NCBI RefSeq assembly: GCF_035609205.1
Contig: NZ_CP141187.1
Coordinates: 62,001 to 126,000, forward strand
Direction of reading: 5' to 3'
DNA from: Hymenobacter sp. GOD-10R
GTDB taxonomy: Bacteria > Bacteroidota > Bacteroidia > Cytophagales > Hymenobacteraceae
Length of the DNA stretch: 64,000 nucleotides
Shown: in pieces, positions 11,134-56,204 of the stretch
Layout: the number at the start of each line of letters is the position of its first letter
Numbering within the stretch: the stretch's first letter is position 1
Position numbers and translations under genes: made by a program
The notes under the pieces: generated by a model
What the model was told of the DNA's origin: nothing
Database searches by the model: none
Seen by the model: the letters and a program-made list of their open reading frames with translations, nothing else

Positions 11134-11427
11134 CTCTTGTTTACTGCAAATGAGGCGGTGGTAGTTACACGGAAAGATTACGCGATTTTTACGGACTGCT
11201 CCGCTAATCGCGGCGAGTAATACGGCCAAGCACGATAACAACCCGTCACACCTTACTAGGGAAGTGGCCTTTCTCAAGCGCTGCAACGAGAATTGACTGC
11301 CGAAGCAGCTGGGCCTTAGGCGCACAGCAGCGGGCTAGCTCGGCGGTGAATGATGCGTGCTTGTACATCAAGGTCACAGGCCACTAGTCTATGGCTTGTC
11401 TTGTCCTAAAATGAACTGTGTTAAAAG

Positions 11428-12417
11428 TCAAGGATTCGGGACAAGTTTTGAGGTAAAGTCGGCTTGGTAAGGCACACCCGATTTAACGATGGCGAAGGCT
11501 TGCTTGAGCAGCTTGTTGCAGACGGCAATCAAGGCCACTTTGCCATTCTTGCCTTTCCCGACGAGTCGCTCATATAAGGCCTGACAGGCTGTATTCCGTT
11601 TCTTGGCCGCGAAGCTGCACATGAAGAGTTTGCCGCGGATTAAGGCCCCACCCATCTTGGTGATGCGCACCTTTCCCCGTACACTGGTGCCTGAACTGTG
11701 CTCACGGGGGGAGAGACCTGCTTTGGCAATCAATTGGCGGTAGTTGTCCAAACGAGCAAAGCCGCCGGCAAACAAGAGCAACAAGCCGGCTGTCTTGCGC
11801 CCAATCCCGGGAATGGAGCACAAGAGGCTCATCTCGTGGGCATAGCGCTGCTCTAGCAGCCGGAGTAACTCGGTTTCAATGTCACGCAGCTGCTGTGCAA
11901 GTTGCTGGCAAGTCTGTTGCAGGCGCTTCAAGGCTAATTTACTCACCACGGGTTGCTGCTGCAAGGCTTCCAAGGAGTTAGTCACCATGGTTTTCTGCTT
12001 AAGCAGTTGCTCGCTGACTTGTTCGAGCTGGCGGCATTCGACCAAAACGGTTTCGTCGGGCTGCCACAGTTTGACAGCCTGCTGCTGGCCGTAGCGCAAC
12101 AGCCACTGGGCATCCTTGCGGTCGCTCTTGCCCTTGCCAAGATGCATTTGAATAAAGCGTTTGATAACTAATGGGTTGAGCACCGCCACCTGTCCTTTCT
12201 GCTCGTGCAGATAATAGGCCAAGGTTAGGTAGTAGCTGCCGGTGGCCTCCATGATGAACAAGCAGTCAGATCCACAGGCTTTCACTAACTGCTGAAAGCC
12301 TGCCTTGGTGTTGCTGACCTCCAAGTACTGCACCTGCTGGTCGCGTTGATAACAGACGGCGAGCGAGGCTTTGCTCACATCAATGCCGACGACGGGGAAA
12401 AGTGATGGCAGATTCAT
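11428..12417 (-). CDS. IS110-family DEDD transposase (copy 1)
   Basis: It has 329 residues. The N-terminal RuvC-like DEDD domain shows Asp13 in GIDVSK, Glu57 in MEATGSY, and Asp99/Asp102 in KSDRKDAQ. A coiled-coil middle is followed by the Transposase_20 domain with CSIPGIGRKTAG and the serine-rich loop (HSSGTSVRGK) that carries the catalytic Ser in this family. Length and motif order match complete IS110 enzymes, so it looks active. IS110 recombinases work with a bridge RNA from the element's non-coding end. The protein is identical to the one at 52309-53298. Confidence 0.95.
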   Translation of the reverse strand: MNLPSLFPVVGIDVSKASLAVCYQRDQQVQYLEVSNTKAGFQQLVKACGSDCLFIMEATGSYYLTLAYYLHEQKGQVAVLNPLVIKRFIQMHLGKGKSDRKDAQWLLRYGQQQAVKLWQPDETVLVECRQLEQVSEQLLKQKTMVTNSLEALQQQPVVSKLALKRLQQTCQQLAQQLRDIETELLRLLEQRYAHEMSLLCSIPGIGRKTAGLLLLFAGGFARLDNYRQLIAKAGLSPREHSSGTSVRGKVRITKMGGALIRGKLFMCSFAAKKRNTACQALYERLVGKGKNGKVALIAVCNKLLKQAFAIVKSGVPYQADFTSKLVPNP

Positions 12418-12643
12418 ACCAAGCAGCCTGAAAGGTGAATAGAAAGGAGAAAAGGAGTTCTAGGGGATCTTTCGCTATCCTAATACAGGCTCGTGCGCCT
12501 CCTGGAACTGTTCAAAGTGGCCCTAGAAGAAGAAGGGGATTGTCATTTTAGACGAGCTAGCAACGCCGCTCCATAGGTTGAGGAATCTTACGCCTTCTCC
12601 TTCCTTTTCAATAGTCTCCCTACGGCGGCTAGGTGAACATAGG
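12418..12643 (-). ncRNA. Putative IS110 bridge RNA region (copy 1)
   Basis: This is the ~226-bp non-coding 5' end of the element. In IS110-group elements the left end upstream of the transposase encodes the bridge RNA that pairs with target and donor. The short margin (31 bp) lies on the other side, which fits that subgroup. Inside, ATAGGTTGA at 12573-12581 repeats nine bases of the target arm found just outside the element (12644-12652), as expected for a target-guide loop. TCCTAATA at 12478-12485 resembles the other arm (TCCTAAAAT). RNA ends and folding are not determined. Confidence 0.45.
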
Positions 12644-12804
12644 ATAGGTTGACGCCTTCCAACGCGGACTATAGTCTGGAGCTGATGCTAGAAAAGTTGT
12701 CAGCGAACTGCACTTGTTGCGCAACCCCGCTAGCTAGGAAGAACGGCTGGCCGAGTTTCCTTAACGTTGTTTTACGTTTCTACTCTAGGGAGACTCTTAC
12801 TTTG

Positions 12805-19655: not shown

Positions 19656-20078
19656 ATGAGCAAGTCTAGTTCTTATGTTTATTTTGCCTTTAGAGGCGAC
19701 TTCAACCCTATTGAGCTAACCGTACGCTTAGGCATCGAGCCCACCACTACGTGGAAGCGAGGGGAAGGCCGTTACCCTTCGCAACGGAAATCTGCTTGCT
19801 GGCAATTGGAAACAGCCAGAGGGAAAGAGCCTGTTCTGATTGATAAGCTAGTTGCAGAAGTGATTGCGAAGCTCGAAGACAAAGCCGAGCTTATCCTGCA
19901 GTTAAAACAGGAATTCCGCCTCGACTCAGTTTTAGAAATTGTCTTGTTTGTCGATATGAACGAAGAGGCATCGCCCCCCGCTTTAGGGCACGACGTACGC
20001 ACGATCAACTTTCTCGCTCGGACGCAGACGCGGACGGATGTCGACCTCTACCGCTATGATTCGCGGGCTGATGAGTAG
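19656..20078 (+). CDS. DUF4279-domain protein
   Basis: It has 140 residues. The start YVYFAFRGDFNPIELTVRLGIEPTTTWKRGE and the later SACWQLETA fit DUF4279, a small cytoplasmic alpha/beta family of unknown activity common in accessory loci. There is no signal or membrane segment. It stands alone, with AT-rich DNA before it and repeats upstream. An immunity-type role has been suggested for some small orphan families in such settings, but nothing here proves it. Confidence 0.78.
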   Translation: MSKSSSYVYFAFRGDFNPIELTVRLGIEPTTTWKRGEGRYPSQRKSACWQLETARGKEPVLIDKLVAEVIAKLEDKAELILQLKQEFRLDSVLEIVLFVDMNEEASPPALGHDVRTINFLARTQTRTDVDLYRYDSRADE

Positions 20079-20243
20079 CTTAAGTACGGAAAAGTACCAT
20101 ACTGAGCGTAACGGCTAAGTGCCTTCAAAATTACACTGATTCCAAGATTCGGGGTATAAGCAACGTTATATAAATCAACTTATTTTAGGAACCAGTAAGC
20201 GGAGCAACAAAGCTGAATCTGGTTTTCGTCTATTTTTATCAGT

Positions 20244-21008
20244 ATGCTCAACCTCCTATTCCCAAGCTTACCCTATCAACGCGTGCTCGATCCGATGTGG
20301 CAGCCGGAAGCCCAGCAAGCCCAGCAGCGCGGCTACTCGGTGTGCCTCTATGATGCCGAGCAGCAACGGCTTTATCAGACCTCGAATCCGGCATGGCCCA
20401 CCCTGTACCGTGGGTGGATGCTCTGTGAGCGAGAGTATCGCCAACTTGCTCAGTTAACGCCCCTGTTCATCTCGCCGGAGTTGTACCTGGCATCCCATCA
20501 CGCCACGGGCTGGTATGCCGCGATTGCGCCGTTCACCCCAGCGAGTGTGTTTGCGCCGGTCCACCGAGCAGCCCTCTTGGTCGAACAAGCCTTGCAAACC
20601 CAAGGTCGTTGCTTTATCAAGACCCTGACCAAATCGTTTGGCGCAGAGTCCGTGATTTCTTCGGTGCCTGCTTTTACTGCGCTCGTGCAGCGGCATGCCT
20701 TAGCGGCCGATGAAGTGCTGTTCATTCGCTCCTATCAGGAACTCTCCACCCAGCCAGAAGAGCGCTATTTTGCCATTCAGGGGCAGCCTTATGGCGCTGC
20801 GGGGAAACGCTTTCCGGTGGAATTGCAACCCGTGCTAGCCCAGTTGCAATCCCGGTGGTTATACACACTGGATGTGGCCTATACCATTTCGGGCACGCCG
20901 CTGATCATCGAAGTTGGTGATGGCCAAGTTTCGGATACAAAGGAGTGGCCCGTGGCAGAGTTGTATCAAACTGTGCTGCAACAGTTAGCTGAGCAGGCCG
21001 CTTCGTAG
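20244..21008 (+). CDS. ATP-grasp domain protein (DUF4343-like)
   Basis: It has 254 residues. The C-terminal half has ATP-grasp-like features: CFIKTLTKSFG (nucleotide-lysine region), VLFIRSYQEL, EERYFAIQGQPYG and the C-terminal LDVAYTISGTPLIIEVGDGQVSD, a typical metal/ATP-binding end with Glu and Asp. The N-terminal half forms the pre-ATP-grasp domain. Such enzymes ligate a carboxylate to an amine using ATP; partners are unknown because no precursor peptide or second biosynthetic gene is adjacent. Confidence 0.72.
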   Translation: MLNLLFPSLPYQRVLDPMWQPEAQQAQQRGYSVCLYDAEQQRLYQTSNPAWPTLYRGWMLCEREYRQLAQLTPLFISPELYLASHHATGWYAAIAPFTPASVFAPVHRAALLVEQALQTQGRCFIKTLTKSFGAESVISSVPAFTALVQRHALAADEVLFIRSYQELSTQPEERYFAIQGQPYGAAGKRFPVELQPVLAQLQSRWLYTLDVAYTISGTPLIIEVGDGQVSDTKEWPVAELYQTVLQQLAEQAAS

Positions 21009-21072
21009 TTGAGCCATATTGAATAAAACGTCTACTTATGAGACATTTAAAATTAGCTTCTTGCACCAGCTG

Positions 21073-21546
21073 CTAAGTTGGGAGGGCTTGTTTGAGGATG
21101 CGCTTGGGTAGCCGGGTGTTTTCCTTCCACAGCAAGATCGTGTAGCAGTCTTCGCCTTCTAGCCCAAACTCATCGATGGAATTCAGGTTCTGGTAGCACA
21201 ACCACACGCCATACAGGCCCGCAGCTAGGGGAATACGTCGACGGTCTGCTAAGGCGTCGATAACGCCGTAAAGAACTGCGGTGTTCGAGTGCATAGTAAG
21301 GCCGCACTCGACTACATGATCGTACTGCTCTAACGCGAGCGCAGGCTTCTCCTCGTAGAGGAGCACCGATACCGGTACAGTATGGTCGCGCACGGTCGTT
21401 AAGACCAGCGTGTGCTCACTCGTATAATTCAGCGTATCGAGTTGCTCCTCATTCCACTCAATTTCCTCTACCATATGCGCCACGGCCGCATCTTGAAAGG
21501 TCACTTGAAAGTAGGCAGCTAAAAGGGTGAAGTTGAATTCCTGCAT
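21073..21546 (-). CDS. Hypothetical protein, 157 aa
   Basis: It is a soluble, acidic protein with no signal peptide. The family is not recognised. It is rich in beta-type segments (HTLVLTTVRDHTVPVSVLLYEE, AAGLYGVWLCYQNLN) and ends with a basic tail (KENTRLPKRILKQALPT). The next gene on the same strand lies 24 bp upstream, so the two may be co-transcribed. Small acidic proteins in pairs beside other orphans are often immunity-like, but no toxin is present nearby. Confidence 0.58.
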   Translation of the reverse strand: MQEFNFTLLAAYFQVTFQDAAVAHMVEEIEWNEEQLDTLNYTSEHTLVLTTVRDHTVPVSVLLYEEKPALALEQYDHVVECGLTMHSNTAVLYGVIDALADRRRIPLAAGLYGVWLCYQNLNSIDEFGLEGEDCYTILLWKENTRLPKRILKQALPT

Positions 21547-21570
21547 CAGCGGATCTTGACTTATAGAACG

Positions 21571-22104
21571 TCATTTGGTGCCTCTGAGCTTTGTGTACTG
21601 CTGTTTTAGTGCCTTACTAGCCACGTGTTTCAACGGGGCATCGGGCAGATGCAGGCAATGCAGCAAAAAGGGCTTTACGAGTACAGGATCCCACCCCGCA
21701 CAAGCCGCTGCTAGCCCGTAGCGGGGATCCGTACGAGAGCGTAGATCAAGCCCCTGCCCGAAATGAAAAAAGGTATTAATGATTCTTTCCTGCTCCTCAC
21801 TAGTGGGTACCATGCGGTCATAGCCCAACACTTCTAGAAGTGCTTCTTTGACCGCGTACTTTTCAGTCGTCGCTACTTCAAACAGCGGCCTACAGTCTAC
21901 TAGATGCGCTCGTTTGATGCGAAAATACGCTCGAACAACAGGAACGAGTATTCCTGCATCTTCTTCCGTATCGATAATATGGCGTAAGCTGCCTAGAATG
22001 CTTTCCTCTCTATTGACGGTTACCTCATCCAGCACTTTTGATAGCTTATTATAGTGTTTCAGAAGCCACGCTTTCAAGAGGATTGCATTGCTATCATGCG
22101 TCAT
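21571..22104 (-). CDS. Hypothetical all-helical protein
   Basis: It has 177 residues and is mostly helical. Repeating helix pairs (LLKAWLLKHYNKLSKVLDEV, ILVPVVRAYFRIKRAHLVDC, AVKEALLEVLGYDRM, VKPFLLHCLHLPDAPLKHVASKAL) suggest a HEAT-like solenoid. There is no signal peptide. It is upstream of and probably co-transcribed with the gene ending at 21073. Function is unknown; a protein-binding role is the most one can infer. Confidence 0.58.
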   Translation of the reverse strand: MTHDSNAILLKAWLLKHYNKLSKVLDEVTVNREESILGSLRHIIDTEEDAGILVPVVRAYFRIKRAHLVDCRPLFEVATTEKYAVKEALLEVLGYDRMVPTSEEQERIINTFFHFGQGLDLRSRTDPRYGLAAACAGWDPVLVKPFLLHCLHLPDAPLKHVASKALKQQYTKLRGTK

Positions 22105-22238
22105 CTAGTGAATAGGGTAACTTAGTGTAAAAAGGTAGACAAAATAGAGAAATTGCTTCTGAAAGAAATAGCCACACAGAGGAGCCGCTTGCTAGCCTTT
22201 TGTCTAACTAGAAGTTCATTCAGAAAAGCAGCTCCTTT

Positions 22239-22610
22239 ATGGCTTTTTATCTTTCGTCCCTAGAAGTGCTTGCGCGTCTCCACCGCGGCAAGCAGGTCGA
22301 ACAATGGCTATCCTATCACCAAGAGGCTGCTTATGGGGTCATTCGGTGGCTATCGCTCTACCGAGATAAGGCGCATACCTACACAGTGCTCTACGTCGAA
22401 TCATTTGATGACGGAGACGAGCACGACCACAATGTACACGAGTTCAGCACCGTAGATCCGGACGAGTTTGGAGTAGCGCATTCCTTCCACTCGGCGGAAG
22501 AAGCGGTGGCTTACGCTTGCACTTACGATGGGGCTTCAGCTGATAAGTTTGTCACTGCCGGCATGATCAATGAAGAATATGCTCAGCAGCAAAAGAGTAG
22601 GCAACAGTAG
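22239..22610 (+). CDS. Hypothetical acidic protein, 123 aa
   Basis: It is not recognised. The middle is acidic and His-rich (ESFDDGDEHDHNVHEF), possibly metal-binding. The rest alternates strands (YTVLYVE) and helices (AEEAVAYACTYDGA). It is cytoplasmic by prediction and divergent from the minus-strand pair to its left. A hairpin that could end transcription follows at 22625-22652. Confidence 0.58.
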   Translation: MAFYLSSLEVLARLHRGKQVEQWLSYHQEAAYGVIRWLSLYRDKAHTYTVLYVESFDDGDEHDHNVHEFSTVDPDEFGVAHSFHSAEEAVAYACTYDGASADKFVTAGMINEEYAQQQKSRQQ

Positions 22611-22624
22611 CCATCGCTGTAAAA

Positions 22625-22652
22625 CCGGCTTTTAGGATCTACGACAAGCCGG
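22625..22652 (+). terminator. Possible terminator hairpin
   Basis: CCGGCTT pairs with AAGCCGG around a 14-nt loop just 15 bp after the stop codon of the preceding gene. The stem is short and there is no clean T-run. Confidence 0.4.
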
Positions 22653-22672
22653 CCTATTAAACATAACATTTA

Positions 22673-22802
22673 GTGGCTGTTGCAAAAGTCGACACTTACC
22701 TATACGGGCTTCTGAAGCCGACTTTTTTTCGCTGTCCAGTCGCCAGAAAGTGGCTGTCTACGTAGGGTGTTTTGCTTCCTGCCTGACTTTTGCAACAGCC
22801 AC
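22673..22802. repeat. MITE-like element with 18-bp TIRs and ATTTA duplication
   Basis: GTGGCTGTTGCAAAAGTC at 22673-22690 recurs exactly in inverted orientation at 22785-22802. ATTTA lies directly outside both ends (22668-22672 and 22803-22807), a perfect 5-bp target-site duplication. The 130-bp unit has no gene but includes an internal hairpin (GGCTTCTGAAGCC). The end sequence resembles termini of some IS5-like elements, so it is probably mobilised by a transposase elsewhere. Confidence 0.75.
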
Positions 22803-22854
22803 ATTTACTTATACGACAGGTATATTTTCCTCTCTATTGGTTCTTTATCCAGTC

Positions 22855-23364
22855 ATGGAGCCATTTTTTTCGCAAGCATTGCTGCAGCAGCCCATTCGCG
22901 ATATCTATCTTATCTATTTCGAGGAAGAACCGAAAAAAGATAGCTCTTCTCCCTGTCAGCTAATCATTGCTTTTCAGGAGGATAATCACTTGTTGGTTGT
23001 GGAAGACGCCTATGACGGAGACCACATCGATATTCGGTTATCGCCTTCTTTACAACTGGAAAGCTTGCTGACTGAAGCAACAGAATCTACCGTATGGAAG
23101 CCTTATAAGACAGTGCCAACCGATGCTATTGGTGTCTTACTAACCGGTCAAATTACGCAACTACTTTATGCTAAGGATAAGTCAGAATTTATAATGAACG
23201 GCAACCTACTACAAGGCAGCCAGCGCTTTTATACGGGCTTAAAGCTCAACTGCGGGCAGAACTGCCTAACCGTTTTCAATAACGGGGTGGGGCTTTTTGT
23301 TGGCGTTAACTCGCCGTTGATGCCTCCTTTTGAAGCTACCTATACTTGGTTTGCAATAGGCTAG
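22855..23364 (+). CDS. Hypothetical protein, 169 aa
   Basis: The ATG at 22855 is chosen because the longer open frame begins inside the MITE-like element. The protein is soluble and beta-rich (IRDIYLIYFEEEP, CQLIIAFQEDNHLLVVEDAYDGDHIDIRL, GVLLTGQITQLLY) with two late cysteines (NCGQNCLTVF). I do not recognise a family. The MITE-like insertion lies 50 bp upstream and may have changed its promoter. Confidence 0.58.
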   Translation: MEPFFSQALLQQPIRDIYLIYFEEEPKKDSSSPCQLIIAFQEDNHLLVVEDAYDGDHIDIRLSPSLQLESLLTEATESTVWKPYKTVPTDAIGVLLTGQITQLLYAKDKSEFIMNGNLLQGSQRFYTGLKLNCGQNCLTVFNNGVGLFVGVNSPLMPPFEATYTWFAIG

Positions 23365-23559
23365 TTATGCTATTATTTTAAGTTTTACTCATTCTTCAGT
23401 ATCACGTATGAAAATGTGTTTTAGTCATTAACATATTGTTTGTTATACCCGCGTTCTTGGAATAATAATAATTTTATCTCTACTGCGCTTATCCTTCGAT
23501 GGTGGTATTTTGGCGCTATTCATGCGCTGCAAACCACCATATATTCCCTGCACACGCTA

Positions 23560-24459
23560 ATGAAGGATTGTTACCGCTCATTTCTTTGCCTTATCCTGCT
23601 ACTGTGAGCCTGCTCTCAACCAGAGCCAACCCAAGACTTTCCTCGCCAAGCACCTCCCAAGCAGACCACCTCCTCTGCCCGAGCGCCGTTTAGCTATATC
23701 CAGCAGGGCGATACCCTGGACTGGCGTACCGTAGAAGCAGCTGTTCCTACTTCCTATAAGGATAGCGTAGTCACGGCGCTTGCCCCCTTCTTTGCCGAGA
23801 TAAACAGGGAAAACCAAGACGGCCCACGTCTGCCACGCAACACGGCCCTTCATGTAGTGGAGTTGAACGGCGATGGGCAGTTGGATGCGGTCTATACTGG
23901 CCCGGTTGGCGCCGAAGCCGACGTGGTCTGGTTCTTTCTCAATGAGCACGGGCGCTATCGTAAAATAGCCCAAGAATGGTGGGGACAGGTCAAGCGCCTT
24001 ACGTTCCAAAAGCGCCACTTGGCAATGCTAACCCTGCTCGATTTTGGGTGTTGCGCGCAGTACATCGAATTCGAAAGTGCCTATGCCTTCGACCAGCACT
24101 TGAACGCAAAGCTCGTCCTGCAACGGGGTACTGCGGCTTTCACGCAACGACCCATCGGTTCGCTGCTAGCCTCTCCCCAAGCGTTTCGCCTGTCCACTGA
24201 TTCTGTTGCGCTGCGGACGGCACCCGTAGTAGATGACACCTCCACGATCATGTATGATGCGGTAAAGAAAGGCAATATCCTGCTCAAGTTCGGCAAAGGG
24301 GCCCAGGGCATTGCCTGGGCGGACAAGGTAGATTCCCTTGGGCAGCAGTGGCGCTACGTAGAAATGCAACCAACTAGTAGTGCCGGGTATTTGATGTACA
24401 GTAAAGAGGACTTTCCCACCTACACGTTGGGCTGGATGCAAGCGAAGGACATACACTAA
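23560..24459 (+). pseudogene. Lipoprotein gene interrupted by a TGA in the signal peptide
   Basis: From the ATG at 23560 the frame reads M-K-D-C-Y-R-S-F-L-C-L-I-L-L-L, then TGA at 23605-23607, then A-C-S-Q-P-E-P and an open frame of about 283 residues to 24459. The position before A-C is where a lipobox Ser or Leu is expected, so a TCA-to-TGA change would explain the stop. The body has LHVVELNGDGQLDAVYTGP (FG-GAP-like calcium-loop pattern) and a C-terminal SH3-like part ending YTLGWMQAKDIH. Translation could restart at the GTG at 23857, but that product would lack an export signal. Confidence 0.7.
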
Positions 24460-32131: not shown

Positions 32132-32163
32132 TGTCTTGTCCGGAAATAGGTTGACAGTTTTAC
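32132..32163. repeat. Solo IS3-type terminal repeat
   Basis: TGTCTTGTCCGGAAATAGG followed by TTGACAGTTTTAC matches the left end of the IS3-family element near 53.5 kb (TAGGTTGACAGTTTTTC) and the 54955-54979 repeat. No transposase is nearby, so it is a leftover end. It is the uninterrupted form of the sequence that is split by both IS110 copies. Confidence 0.75.
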
Positions 32164-32382
32164 TTGTTTTCTTAGTTTAGTCGGCCTCGTTTCGCTGTAC
32201 AATTAGCTTCGAATTAGGAGTACGGCAAAACAGCGTTTCTGTGAATTGAAGGCCATTTCTGCTTTACCTTGTTCAGCGAAACAACCCACGAGGTGAACTT
32301 TATGGACTAGTCTACTTTCTAAATGGTTTAATGGTCTTTGTCTGGTTTGAAAAGATCTTTCTCGGGGTGTCTAAAGCGACTC

Positions 32383-51996: not shown

Positions 51997-52035
51997 AGAA
52001 AATTACTTTCTTAACACTGTAAAAATTAGTTGTTG

Positions 52036-52290
52036 ATGACTACTCCTATTCAACAGGTGATACACCGTCTACTAAGCAAGCAACTCCGTCGCCGCTTAGC
52101 TTGGGTTACCCCTAGTACCCGCTTGGTAGAAGATCTAGGATTTGAGCTGCTGGATCAGGTGAACCTAGTCTGGCAGCTGGAAAAGACGTATCAGATCATT
52201 ATTCCCGATCCAGAGATTGATGATCTCCGCACCGTGCAGGACGTAGTGACCTGTGTACAAAGTCACTTGGTCCACTATGTCTTGTCCTAA
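52036..52290 (+). CDS. Acyl-carrier-protein-like, lacking the attachment serine; 3' end altered by IS
   Basis: It has 84 residues from the ATG at 52036 (TTGs just before it are less likely). The ACP fold is clear: VTPSTRLVEDLGFELLDQVNLVWQLEKTYQIIIPDPEIDDLRTVQDVVTCV. The conserved D-S-L of helix II is E-L-L here, so there is no Ser for phosphopantetheine. The last codons (Y-V-L-S-stop) come from the IS terminal repeat starting at 52278, so the original C-terminus is lost. It is probably a non-carrier or decayed paralogue. No fatty-acid genes are adjacent. Confidence 0.7.
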   Translation: MTTPIQQVIHRLLSKQLRRRLAWVTPSTRLVEDLGFELLDQVNLVWQLEKTYQIIIPDPEIDDLRTVQDVVTCVQSHLVHYVLS

Positions 52291-52308
52291 AATGAACTGT
52301 GTTAAAAG

Positions 52309-53298
52309 TCAAGGATTCGGGACAAGTTTTGAGGTAAAGTCGGCTTGGTAAGGCACACCCGATTTAACGATGGCGAAGGCTTGCTTGAGCAGCTTGTTGC
52401 AGACGGCAATCAAGGCCACTTTGCCATTCTTGCCTTTCCCGACGAGTCGCTCATATAAGGCCTGACAGGCTGTATTCCGTTTCTTGGCCGCGAAGCTGCA
52501 CATGAAGAGTTTGCCGCGGATTAAGGCCCCACCCATCTTGGTGATGCGCACCTTTCCCCGTACACTGGTGCCTGAACTGTGCTCACGGGGGGAGAGACCT
52601 GCTTTGGCAATCAATTGGCGGTAGTTGTCCAAACGAGCAAAGCCGCCGGCAAACAAGAGCAACAAGCCGGCTGTCTTGCGCCCAATCCCGGGAATGGAGC
52701 ACAAGAGGCTCATCTCGTGGGCATAGCGCTGCTCTAGCAGCCGGAGTAACTCGGTTTCAATGTCACGCAGCTGCTGTGCAAGTTGCTGGCAAGTCTGTTG
52801 CAGGCGCTTCAAGGCTAATTTACTCACCACGGGTTGCTGCTGCAAGGCTTCCAAGGAGTTAGTCACCATGGTTTTCTGCTTAAGCAGTTGCTCGCTGACT
52901 TGTTCGAGCTGGCGGCATTCGACCAAAACGGTTTCGTCGGGCTGCCACAGTTTGACAGCCTGCTGCTGGCCGTAGCGCAACAGCCACTGGGCATCCTTGC
53001 GGTCGCTCTTGCCCTTGCCAAGATGCATTTGAATAAAGCGTTTGATAACTAATGGGTTGAGCACCGCCACCTGTCCTTTCTGCTCGTGCAGATAATAGGC
53101 CAAGGTTAGGTAGTAGCTGCCGGTGGCCTCCATGATGAACAAGCAGTCAGATCCACAGGCTTTCACTAACTGCTGAAAGCCTGCCTTGGTGTTGCTGACC
53201 TCCAAGTACTGCACCTGCTGGTCGCGTTGATAACAGACGGCGAGCGAGGCTTTGCTCACATCAATGCCGACGACGGGGAAAAGTGATGGCAGATTCAT
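52309..53298 (-). CDS. IS110-family DEDD transposase (copy 2)
   Basis: It is residue-for-residue identical to the copy at 11428-12417 (329 aa), with Asp13, Glu57, Asp99 and Asp102 of the DEDD site and the HSSGTSVRGK serine region intact. It reads toward the ACP-like gene. Being intact in both places, either copy can supply the recombinase. Confidence 0.95.
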   Translation of the reverse strand: MNLPSLFPVVGIDVSKASLAVCYQRDQQVQYLEVSNTKAGFQQLVKACGSDCLFIMEATGSYYLTLAYYLHEQKGQVAVLNPLVIKRFIQMHLGKGKSDRKDAQWLLRYGQQQAVKLWQPDETVLVECRQLEQVSEQLLKQKTMVTNSLEALQQQPVVSKLALKRLQQTCQQLAQQLRDIETELLRLLEQRYAHEMSLLCSIPGIGRKTAGLLLLFAGGFARLDNYRQLIAKAGLSPREHSSGTSVRGKVRITKMGGALIRGKLFMCSFAAKKRNTACQALYERLVGKGKNGKVALIAVCNKLLKQAFAIVKSGVPYQADFTSKLVPNP

Positions 53299-53524
53299 AC
53301 CAAGCAGCCTGAAAGGTGAATAGAAAGGAGAAAAGGAGTTCTAGGGGATCTTTCGCTATCCTAATACAGGCTCGTGCGCCTCCTGGAACTGTTCAAAGTG
53401 GCCCTAGAAGAAGAAGGGGATTGTCATTTTAGACGAGCTAGCAACGCCGCTCCATAGGTTGAGGAATCTTACGCCTTCTCCTTCCTTTTCAATAGTCTCC
53501 CTACGGCGGCTAGGTGAACATAGG
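53299..53524 (-). ncRNA. Putative IS110 bridge RNA region (copy 2)
   Basis: It is the same ~226-bp non-coding end as in copy 1. ATAGGTTGA at 53454-53462 repeats the target arm outside the element (53525-53533), which here is demonstrably the left terminal repeat of the IS3 element. Guide-target matching is thus visible in context. Folding and exact ends are not determined. Confidence 0.45.
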
Positions 53525-53558
53525 ATAGGTTGACAGTTTTTCTTACAAAAACTGTTCT

Positions 53559-53942
53559 ATGCAAGACCACATTCGTGACCTGCTCCACCGCTTCCAGTAT
53601 AGCGAACAACTGAAAGAAACGGCGGCATTCCGTATCCTTCTTGGCGGGGAAGATCCGAGCCACGTCATGGCTGACCTGGACATCCACAATAGTTACACAC
53701 TGCGCAACTGGGTGAGTCAGTATCAGCACAAGATCCAGACGGGCTTGTTCGTTGCGCCTGCCATGACACGCACCCAGAAACAGGATGTTCACGCGCTGCA
53801 GCAGTGCAACCAAGAGCTGACGCAACTGCTGCAGGAGGCTAATCTGCTTATCCTCGCCCTCAACACCATGATCGAGGTGGCCGAACAAGAGTTGAAGATC
53901 TCGATTCGAAAAAAGTCTGGCACCAAACGGTCTCACGGCTGA
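53559..53942 (+). CDS. IS3-family OrfA
   Basis: It has 127 residues. The N-terminal half is HTH-like (FRILLGGEDPSHVMADLDIHNSYTLRNWVSQY) and binds the terminal repeats. The C-terminal half is a leucine zipper (VHALQQCNQELTQLLQEANLLILALNTMIEV). The stop lies 28 nt past an A AAA AAG slippery heptamer that allows -1 frameshifting into OrfB. OrfA alone usually represses transposition. Confidence 0.88.
   Translation: MQDHIRDLLHRFQYSEQLKETAAFRILLGGEDPSHVMADLDIHNSYTLRNWVSQYQHKIQTGLFVAPAMTRTQKQDVHALQQCNQELTQLLQEANLLILALNTMIEVAEQELKISIRKKSGTKRSHG
53909..53915 (+). promoter_or_regulatory. Programmed -1 frameshift site (A AAA AAG)
   Basis: The heptamer is in register with OrfA codons CGA-AAA-AAG. A -1 slip gives V-W-H-Q-T-V-S-R-L-K-S-H-D-L-A-Q joined directly to the OrfB frame, which is the normal OrfAB fusion of IS3 elements. 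It is the expected source of active transposase. Confidence 0.85.
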
Positions 53943-53962
53943 AAAGCCATGATCTAGCCCAG

Positions 53963-54901
53963 GTGCGCGTCGGGCGCCTGTGCCGTCTGTTTGGTGTGAG
54001 CCGACAAGCCTTTTACCGCAAAGAACAGTATGCGCAACGCGCCCGAGGGCAGGCGCTTCTGGTGCTGGACTTGGTGCTCGCGCTTCGGCGCGAAATACCG
54101 GGCCTAGGCACGCGCAAACTACATATGCTGCTGCAAGAGCCCTTGACCAGAAGCGGCATTAAGATGGGGCGAGACAAACTACATCAACTCTTACACGAGC
54201 ATGGCCTGCTGCTGCGTCAGCCGCGTCAAGTCCCCAAAACGACGAATTCACTGCATAGTCTGCGGAAATACCCTAATCTGTTGCGGAACCAACTCCTCAC
54301 CGCTCCCCGCCAAGTATGGGTCAGTGACATCACTTACTTATGTATTGGTCTCGGCTTTGGCTATCTATCCTTGATCACGGATGCATACTCCAAGATGATT
54401 ATGGGCTACTGTCTGCACCCGCTGCTGACAGCGGAAGGGGCCATCAACGCCTTGGACATGGCCCTGAGCCACGGCGAAAGTAGCCAGGAACTCATCCATC
54501 ACTCGGACCGGGGAAGCCAATATTGCAGTTTCCAGTACGTGCAAAAGCTGCGGCGAGCGGGTATTGCCATCAGCATGACAGAAAACGGGGATCCGTATGA
54601 GAATGCCATTGCCGAACGGGTGAACGGCATCTTAAAAATTGACTTTCACCTGAACCGGGTATTCACTACGTTTGAGGAGGCGCAACGGGCAGTCGAGGCG
54701 AGTATCCGCAATTACAACCACCTGCGGCCCCACATGAGTTGCGGGTACTTAACACCGGCGGCGGCACACGCCAGCACTCAACCGCTACAGCAACGTTGGA
54801 GGCCCAAAGTATACCCTTCTCGTAAAACACCTACAGCCGATAAGCTAGGCCATAGCGAGCCTGATTTATCGACAGTGACAACCTCTCGTCAGGACTACTA
54901 A
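53963..54901 (+). CDS. IS3-family OrfB (DDE transposase)
   Basis: It has 312 residues from a GTG; as OrfAB fusion it starts at the frameshift (53915). The HTH_21 part (LGTRKLHMLLQEPLTRSGIKMGRDKLHQLL) precedes an rve integrase core with Asp122 (VSDITYL), Asp182 (HHSDRGSQY) and Glu218 (ENAIAERVNGILK), the D-D-(35)-E spacing. All catalytic residues are present. The end contains YNHLRPHMSCGYLTPAAAHA, typical for the family. Confidence 0.93.
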   Translation: MRVGRLCRLFGVSRQAFYRKEQYAQRARGQALLVLDLVLALRREIPGLGTRKLHMLLQEPLTRSGIKMGRDKLHQLLHEHGLLLRQPRQVPKTTNSLHSLRKYPNLLRNQLLTAPRQVWVSDITYLCIGLGFGYLSLITDAYSKMIMGYCLHPLLTAEGAINALDMALSHGESSQELIHHSDRGSQYCSFQYVQKLRRAGIAISMTENGDPYENAIAERVNGILKIDFHLNRVFTTFEEAQRAVEASIRNYNHLRPHMSCGYLTPAAAHASTQPLQQRWRPKVYPSRKTPTADKLGHSEPDLSTVTTSRQDY

Positions 54902-54954
54902 AGCACAATCATCTCTCACCGATAACTGACAACTTATTTTCAGGATCAGACAAG

Positions 54955-54979
54955 TGTCTTGTCCGGAAAGAGGTTGACA
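54955..54979. repeat. Second solo IS3-type terminal repeat
   Basis: TGTCTTGTCCGGAAAGAGGT then TGACA differs from the 32132 repeat by one base. It starts 3 bp after the right end of the IS3 element. It may be the remnant of an older related IS into which, or next to which, the present one inserted. Confidence 0.65.
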
Positions 54980-55004
54980 ATAGACGCGATGAGGGTCTCA
55001 ACTA

Positions 55005-55032
55005 AAAAGCCCCTCGGATAGGAGGGGCTTTT
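55005..55032 (-). terminator. Rho-independent terminator
   Basis: AAAAGCCCCTC pairs perfectly with GAGGGGCTTTT around a 6-nt loop, 30 bp beyond the stop of the minus-strand hydrolase gene. On the minus strand it is followed by a T-run. Confidence 0.82.
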
Positions 55033-55061
55033 GGTCACATCGGGTTAGGCGTTCAGGCGCT

Positions 55062-56204
55062 TTATTGGAAGGCCGCTTTGAGGCGGGTGGCGGCAAACTG
55101 CTGGGCTTCTTCGGCTTTGGGTACTACGGCGTACGTGCCGAAGAACTCGTGGGTGGTGCCGCTGTAGAGCTGGTACTGGTTGGCCACGCCTACTTGGGTG
55201 AGCTTGTCGGCGAGCTGCTTGCCTTCGGTTTGCAGCGGGTCGATTTCGGCGGCAATGATGGTAGCGGCGGGCAACCCGCTCAAGTTCGCCACGTCCGTCA
55301 GCGAGATCAGGCGGTTGTTGCCGTCCGCTGGGGTGGTGAAGTAGTTCTGGGTGAAATACTCAATGTTGGCCTTGCTCAAGGGCATGGCATTGGCGTACTG
55401 GTTGTAGGAAGCCGTGTTCAGGTCGTTATTGGCGACGGGATAGACCAACAGTTGGTGAATGGGCAGCGCCAGGCCCCGCTCCTTGGCCAGCAGGCACACG
55501 CCCACGGCCATGTTGCCGCCGGCGCTTTCGCCCGCAACGGCGACTTTGGCCGCGTTGCCGCCGAAGTTGGTGGCGTTTTCTTTGGCCCACTTATAGGCCG
55601 CATACGCATCTTCGTGGGCAGCCGGGAACTTAGCCTCCGGCGAGAGGCGGTAATCCACCGATACCACGATGGCGCCCGTGTTGGCGGCCAGGGCCTTGGC
55701 CGAAGGCTCATACACGTCAAGCGAGCCAATCACCCAGCCCCCGCCGTGGTAATACACAATCACGGGCAAGGAGCCCGACACGCCGGCGGGTTTGTAGATG
55801 CGCACCAGGATGCCGTCGGCGGCTGACTGGGGCGTGTAGTTTTTGGGCAATACCTGTTGAGTCACCGTCACGTTGGGCGGGGTGGGCGCCAAGTTGTTTT
55901 TCTTGAGCAGGTCCTGCACGGCATCCGTTACGCTGGGCGCCATGCGCGCTTGCCGGGGGGAAAGCGTGGGCAGCGCGGGGGTGCCGTAGCTCATAAACTG
56001 CTCCAGCACGGCCAGCATTTGCGCGTCGATGTTCGGCGCGTAGGTGGGCGCTGACCCGGTGGGCTGGATCAGCGTCGTCTTCGGATCGTTCGCGTCGCTG
56101 TCGTCGTCACACGAGGTCAAGGGCAGGGCGAGCAAGGTGGCGGCCAGGGCCAGGGGCGCCAGGCGGAACGCCTGGGGCAGAAAGGGCAGAAAACGTCGTT
56201 TCAT
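55062..56204 (-). CDS. HSL-type esterase/lipase lipoprotein
   Basis: It has 380 residues from MKRRFLPFLPQAF (ATG 56204). The lipobox L-T-S-C is near residue 33. The alpha/beta hydrolase_3 (family IV, hormone-sensitive-lipase-like) core is plain: YYHGGGWVIGSLD (oxyanion hole HGGGW), nucleophile elbow G-E-S-A-G-G-N, acid in AAEIDPLQTEG, and catalytic His in GTTHEFFGTYAV. It should hydrolyse short acyl esters in the periplasm or at the outer membrane. It is monocistronic with its own terminator. Confidence 0.9.
   Translation of the reverse strand: MKRRFLPFLPQAFRLAPLALAATLLALPLTSCDDDSDANDPKTTLIQPTGSAPTYAPNIDAQMLAVLEQFMSYGTPALPTLSPRQARMAPSVTDAVQDLLKKNNLAPTPPNVTVTQQVLPKNYTPQSAADGILVRIYKPAGVSGSLPVIVYYHGGGWVIGSLDVYEPSAKALAANTGAIVVSVDYRLSPEAKFPAAHEDAYAAYKWAKENATNFGGNAAKVAVAGESAGGNMAVGVCLLAKERGLALPIHQLLVYPVANNDLNTASYNQYANAMPLSKANIEYFTQNYFTTPADGNNRLISLTDVANLSGLPAATIIAAEIDPLQTEGKQLADKLTQVGVANQYQLYSGTTHEFFGTYAVVPKAEEAQQFAATRLKAAFQ

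Follow-up and report, generated by a model that had tools for sequence, protein, structure and literature searches.

An IS110-group element of Hymenobacter with a predicted bridge RNA aimed at IS3-family terminal repeats

Two identical copies of an IS110 element in Hymenobacter sp. GOD-10R each lie inside a terminal repeat of the IS3 family, and an explanation for this choice of site can be read in the guides of a predicted bridge RNA upstream of the recombinase gene. The stretch analysed here (the window) comprises 64,000 nt, positions 62001-126000 of contig 4 in a 7.5-Mb genome. That the IS110 recognises IS3-type ends had been proposed in a preliminary description of this DNA, and our analysis supports the proposal: on the sequence evidence, we put at roughly nine in ten the probability that the window element belongs to the IS110 group and carries a bridge RNA aimed at IS3 ends. 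It offers a clear example from nature of an RNA-guided mechanism that is already known, with an unusual target.

Results

Two IS110 copies split an IS3-family terminal repeat

Both copies read TGTCTTGTCCTAAA-AT-[1,231 bp]-AT-AGGTTGAC, as first described, with copy 2 at 52278-53534 and copy 1 at 11397-12653. Sequence comparison places the elements proper between their AT cores, at 52294-53524 for copy 2 and 11413-12643 for copy 1 (both on the minus strand), and in alignment the two are identical over 1,235 bp, both cores included. Each encodes a recombinase of 329 aa (52309-53298 in copy 2, minus strand) with the DEDD (PF01548) and Tnp_20 (PF02371) domains of the IS110 family. The best matches of this protein in named genomes are from Hymenobacter, the nearest other recombinases being 79-87% identical, and sequence comparison with the PDB finds two relatives of solved structure, the recombinases of ISCro4 (9t56) and IS621 (8wt6). 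The IS110 group is told from the IS1111 group, with exceptions, by having its longer noncoding stretch ahead of the transposase gene (PMC11187229). Here, 226 nt of noncoding sequence lie upstream of the recombinase gene and 15 nt downstream, which is the IS110-group layout and not that of the IS1111 group, where the noncoding region is downstream.

Each copy splits a 24-nt version of an IS3-family terminal repeat, the target reading TGTCAACCTATTTTAGGACAAGACA. In copy 2, the outer half of the split left terminal repeat, on the right target side of the IS110, occupies 52278-52291 (plus strand), while the inner half, AGGTTGACA, at 53527-53535 (plus strand), is continuous with an IS3 element; the earlier statement that this flank runs directly into the left end of an IS3 is borne out, with a body from 53527 to about 54979. 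In copy 1, a repeat half and AT core at 11397-11412 face an AT core and repeat half AGGTTGAC at 12644-12653 (both plus strand). No IS3 body was found in the flanks of copy 1, nor any relative of the IS3 orfB within 41 kb, and its target is an orphan repeat.

The sequence TGTCTTGTCCTAAA, with up to two mismatches, occurs four times in the window against 0.28 expected from shuffles. When the IS110 and one AT are removed, the rejoined 24-mer agrees with 32132-32155 at 22 of 24 positions, precisely as reported. It corresponds to the IS3 terminal 25-mer, and among twelve IS3 ends picked by hand from the loci of relatives and from the window, the best identity is to the left end at L062, in another genome (23/25 for copy 1, 24/25 for copy 2), with 19 to 23 of 25 positions identical to the other eleven. 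Among 200,000 random 25-mers, a value of 18 was reached once and never exceeded. Relatives of the adjoining IS3, on plasmids and in genomes of the genus, typically start TGTCTTGTCC(GG/TG)AAATA(A/G)GTTGACAGTTTTT, with variants. The preliminary description had called the repeat at 32132 a solo copy. An unoccupied IS3-type left-end 25-mer with two mismatches to the guide is indeed present (32132-32156, plus strand), but it is not bare, having 77 nt in common with a site on contig 3, and it is probably, judging from this shared sequence, the left end of a related element. The two sites, 32132-32208 and contig 3:128431-128507, are 91% identical over these 77 nt and represent a second IS3-like left-end type in which the repeat is followed by ACTTGTTTTCTTAGTTTAGTCGGCCTC; no element body was identified beside the pair.

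The cores of copy 2 lie at 52292-52293 (right-end side) and 53525-53526 (left-end side). AT as the shared core is supported, but over 30 elements T alone is invariant, and the first base differs between the two ends in 10 of them. The variants are AT, GT and TT, with left/right mismatches in both directions. IS621 accepts the same three cores, its second T being almost invariant (PMC11208158). Mixed core ends may reflect a heteroduplex core after replication.

A predicted bridge RNA with guides for the IS3 end

The left end of copy 2 (53322-53526, minus strand) contains the predicted bridge RNA, target loop followed by donor loop, as derived from the alignment and fold of 27 left ends. In the target loop, the left guide TCAACCTAT (53454-53462, minus strand) agrees in both copies at 9/9 positions with the left target and core, and the right guide CTAAAAT (53426-53432, minus strand) is complementary to ATTTTAG, that is, the core and right target. 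By eye, the right guide matches 7/7 as a reverse complement in both copies; it scores 7.5/8 when wobble is included. In the donor loop, the left guide ACAGTTC (53386-53392, minus strand; position derived from the alignment) is identical to the right terminus of the element, and the predicted right guide TAGGAT (53358-53363, minus strand; read from the alignment and the sequence) is complementary to ATCCTA, the core and left terminus. Over the set of elements, the left donor guide equals the last 7 nt of its element in 29/30 cases (a count without L005, L045 and L051), with three matching variants (20, 8 and 1 elements). At the level of sequence, the target and donor loops match the flanks and the ends respectively, as expected of a bridge RNA.

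The 27 left ends share a consensus fold in which 41 pairs form two loops, and 22 of these pairs show compensatory changes; the alignment omits copy 1 and L025 (duplicates) as well as L003, L005, L045 and L051. This two-loop layout is the one described for bridge RNAs (PMC11208160 and PMC11208158). Three results tell against the main reading. Folded as a single sequence, the region gains no stability over its shuffled versions (z -0.48), and the fold was obtained from the alignment instead. Nothing in Rfam matches 52000-55100. The two copies are compatible with handshake pairing, yet over 30 elements it does not rise above shuffles, 1,700 of 10,000 of which reach it.

Guides and targets across relatives

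We scored guides against flanks in 33 elements: 28 of 37 loci with related recombinases, L003, L004 and L005 from the same genome, and the two window copies. The nine omitted loci have no left end that our scans recognised, except for L050, which is almost a duplicate of another locus. The 33 elements comprise 31 distinct loops, the L023 loop being counted as zero. On the left, the mean score of a guide on its own target is 6.48 against 5.21 (sd 0.16), and on the right 6.64 against 5.55 (sd 0.13; 29 loops), each above all 20,000 shuffles. On the left, 12 of 32 scored loops place the element's own target first; on the right, 14 of 30 do so. The lowest ranks are 29 (L030, left) and 24 (L003, right). 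The match over the set is therefore far from perfect, and this counts against our main reading. Covariation with relatives joins boundaries, target, guides and conserved fold among the features that the sequences themselves show.

L003, on contig 1 of the same genome, has an intact frame and a different guide. The fit of this guide to the flanks is poor (rank 13 on the left, 24 on the right), which is a further point against the main reading; perhaps the element stems from an off-target insertion or from later recombination.

The flanks of other copies, to which the preliminary description had pointed, are in keeping with its proposal. Relatives with other guides sit elsewhere and, as a set, match their own guides, and of the three elements sharing the IS3-aimed guide two lie fully in an IS3-type end, the third (L004) having an IS3 end on one side only. 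For the 27 elements with other guides, in-register identity to IS3 ends is 4 to 16 of 25; the templates of this comparison included the copies' own site, which was left out when the copies themselves were compared. The exact pattern of the IS3-aimed guide is found in 1 of 204 family genomes, the present one, in three copies. Genome-wide, no vacant site carries the 14-nt target TCAACCTATTTTAG without a mismatch, and just one, at 20175-20188 of the window, carries it with a single mismatch, so that perfect targets are confined to the two occupied sites; the reversed control of the pattern has four sites. The vacant IS3-type ends of this genome carry two mismatches to the guide (32132) or three (54955 and L007). 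Full insertions in IS3-type ends number two, from one genome, and one of them (copy 1) is in an orphan repeat, which also counts against the main reading.

The third element with the same guides

L004, on contig 3, has the guides of the window copies and a broken reading frame, and in the tree it forms one clade with them (support 100/98). Its right flank equals the IS3 right end at L063 at 16/16 positions. Its left flank is, in register, a dispersed intergenic repeat (score 44 against shuffles of up to 32), and the joined site has mismatches to the guide at 6 of 14 positions. Such hybrid flanks would follow from homologous recombination between two IS110 copies. With these flanks and its broken frame, L004 counts only half for an IS3-end target, and its left flank tells against it. 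We also considered the idea that the repeat around the sister elements is an IS3 right end; the left flank of L004 scored at most 22 against six IS3 right ends and 44 against repeat copies, and the idea was rejected.

The dispersed intergenic repeat

At least four sisters (L015, L022, L026 and L031) sit in this dispersed repeat, whose consensus is built around TTCCAAGA...TATAAC...TTATGTTAA. When their flanks are joined and turned into a profile, it detects copies that run unbroken across the junction, at L044 (E down to 9e-12) and in the window at 20086-20240 (E 3.5e-8), and the flanks of other sisters give weak matches to the dispersed-repeat profile (E 0.1 to 10). Copies lie at 20079-20243 and 23410-23530 of the window, at 1654-1800 and 4483-4683 of L044, and in L117. 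The one at 20079-20243 is divergent and encloses the near-match vacant site at 20175-20188. The strict repeat pattern occurs three times in the present genome, on contigs 4 and 7 only, and its reversed control not at all; the divergent copy comes on top of these three. Rfam over 19900-23700, near the window copies, returned a single match far below the gathering score. In fuller form, the repeat reads GGAAAAGTACCAC ... TTCCAAGA ... TATAAC ... TTATGTTAA.

The adjoining IS3 element

The IS3 next to copy 2 encodes an orfA of 127 aa (53559-53942, plus strand), whose HTH_Tnp_1 domain falls just below the Pfam cut-off, and an orfB of 312 aa (53963-54901, plus strand) with the rve integrase core, the orfA/orfB pair of the IS3 family. 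Downstream lies a right subterminal repeat, TGACAACTTATTTTCAGGATCAGACA (54927-54952, plus strand), a motif also found in 11 distinct relatives. In 10 of these 11 the terminal 25-mer comes after it in inverse form (e.g. GGTCAACTTATTTTCGGACGAGACA), at a distance that varies, and L075 has neither form. The IS3 of the window has at 54955-54979 (plus strand) the terminal 25-mer in left-end orientation, a further copy absent from the preliminary description. Its left end is split and its right terminal 25-mer inverted or replaced; an inversion at a quasi-palindrome, or a junction with a second, deleted IS3, could each have given the arrangement at 54927-54979. Of 120 genus genomes, 9 contain close relatives of this IS3 (E <= 1e-100) and 7 contain the strict left-end pattern, the present genome being counted both times. 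In two genus genomes, L066 (1501-1567) and L106 (330-398) hold short near-perfect palindromes in which two left ends of the IS3 type are joined head to head and which resemble miniature elements.

Discussion

The mechanism that we propose takes its steps from IS621. The bridge RNA, specified by the sequence that precedes the recombinase gene, would have a target loop aimed at the Hymenobacter IS3-family terminal repeat. By analogy with IS621, the recombinase would excise the IS110 as a circle joined at the AT core, with the predicted junction CACAGTTC-AT-CCTATGTT, and would then bind the bridge RNA and recombine the circle into an IS3 end. Insertion would therefore occur at a fixed place and in a fixed orientation, splitting the terminal repeat. 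We infer, then, that the RNA is expressed, that the circle forms and recombines, and that the IS3 loses its mobility.

Other explanations of the insertion pattern have to be weighed. The whole 1,257-bp block, consisting of the 24-mer halves and the IS110, could itself be mobile or duplicated, in which case the shared halves of the IS3 end travelled with it and are no record of two independent choices of site. The blocks are identical and copy 1 has no IS3 body alongside, as such a history would have it, yet 29 other elements end at the core and not 14 and 8 nt beyond it, their flanks differ, and the inner half of copy 2 is continuous with an IS3 element. L004, with the same guides, has the IS3 half on its right but another sequence on its left; the right guide pairs with only 5 nt past the core, yet the identity to the repeat extends to the IS3 terminus; and no target duplication is seen by eye around copy 1. 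We consider a mobile or duplicated block very unlikely. It is scarcely credible that general properties of the DNA, for instance AT-richness or palindromic structure, decide where the IS110 inserts, with IS3 ends being incidental: the guides match their targets as a set over 33 elements and the genome has no perfect 14-nt target besides the two occupied sites, even though IS3 ends are quasi-palindromic (TGTC...GACA), palindromic REP elements are known IS110 targets (PMC11208160) and several relatives fit their own guides poorly.

The dispersed repeat offers a further alternative, namely that the guide is truly aimed at this repeat and reaches IS3 ends through a shared motif. The single vacant site with one mismatch, 20175-20188, does lie inside a repeat copy, and the left flank of L004 is the dispersed repeat. 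However, one such site in 7.5 Mb is within chance, the reversed control having 4, and each of the complete insertions lies in 24 nt of IS3 repeat, to which the guide is a perfect match, whereas it has a mismatch in the dispersed repeat. This explanation, too, we regard as improbable, and we retain a guide aimed at the IS3 terminal repeat.

The preliminary description had drawn a parallel with IS4321/IS5075, which holds as a functional likeness but not in classification, these belonging to the IS1111 group, in which inverted repeats of 11-13 bp lie subterminally, whereas the window IS110 has its noncoding region upstream. Both enter the terminal repeat of another transposon, a Tn21-family end for IS4321/IS5075 (Partridge and Hall 2003) and an IS3-family end here. 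In IS1384, the inverted repeats of one insertion sequence are likewise the specific target of another, IS1383 (Muller et al. 2001); host and target element differ, and the likeness concerns the insertion pattern, the bridge RNA aside. IS621, of the IS110 group, is alike in recombinase family, upstream noncoding region, two-loop RNA, and guides for target and donor, a left and a right one for each, in which a dinucleotide core with a final T is included. It differs in its core (CT against AT in the window IS110), in its target (a REP element against an IS3 terminal repeat) and in the right target guide, which in the window element matches 7 nt including the core (PMC11208160 and PMC11208158 for IS621). 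ISEc21/ISMch6 and ISEc11/ISXne4 show natural reprogramming among related elements, an altered guide going with an altered target (PMC11187229); the set described here differs in that its targets include the end of a different insertion sequence. The RNA-guided mechanism, natural reprogramming (PMC11187229) and insertion into the ends of other mobile elements are each known separately. A literature search, mostly of papers open without subscription, turned up no IS110 recognised in IS3 ends, no bridge RNA recognised as aimed at an IS3-family terminal repeat, and no paper with both "IS110 family" and Hymenobacter.

Here an unusual pattern of insertion is linked to an RNA guide that can be read, and close relatives differ in both guides and targets. 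The compact AT-core recombinase and the guide-target set of some 30 relatives are material for working out the rules of bridge-RNA retargeting. The near-match site inside the dispersed repeat suggests a stepping stone for a switch of guide, the direction of which is left unfixed by the tree. A tentative scenario, to which we give limited credence, is that the bridge RNA was retargeted from the dispersed repeat to IS3 ends, perhaps via an IS3-like motif, and that the element may now act as a reversible switch of the IS3. If so, insertion, by splitting the terminal repeat, would leave the IS3 immobile until a scarless excision made it whole again. In essence, one transposon here addresses the terminal repeat of another.
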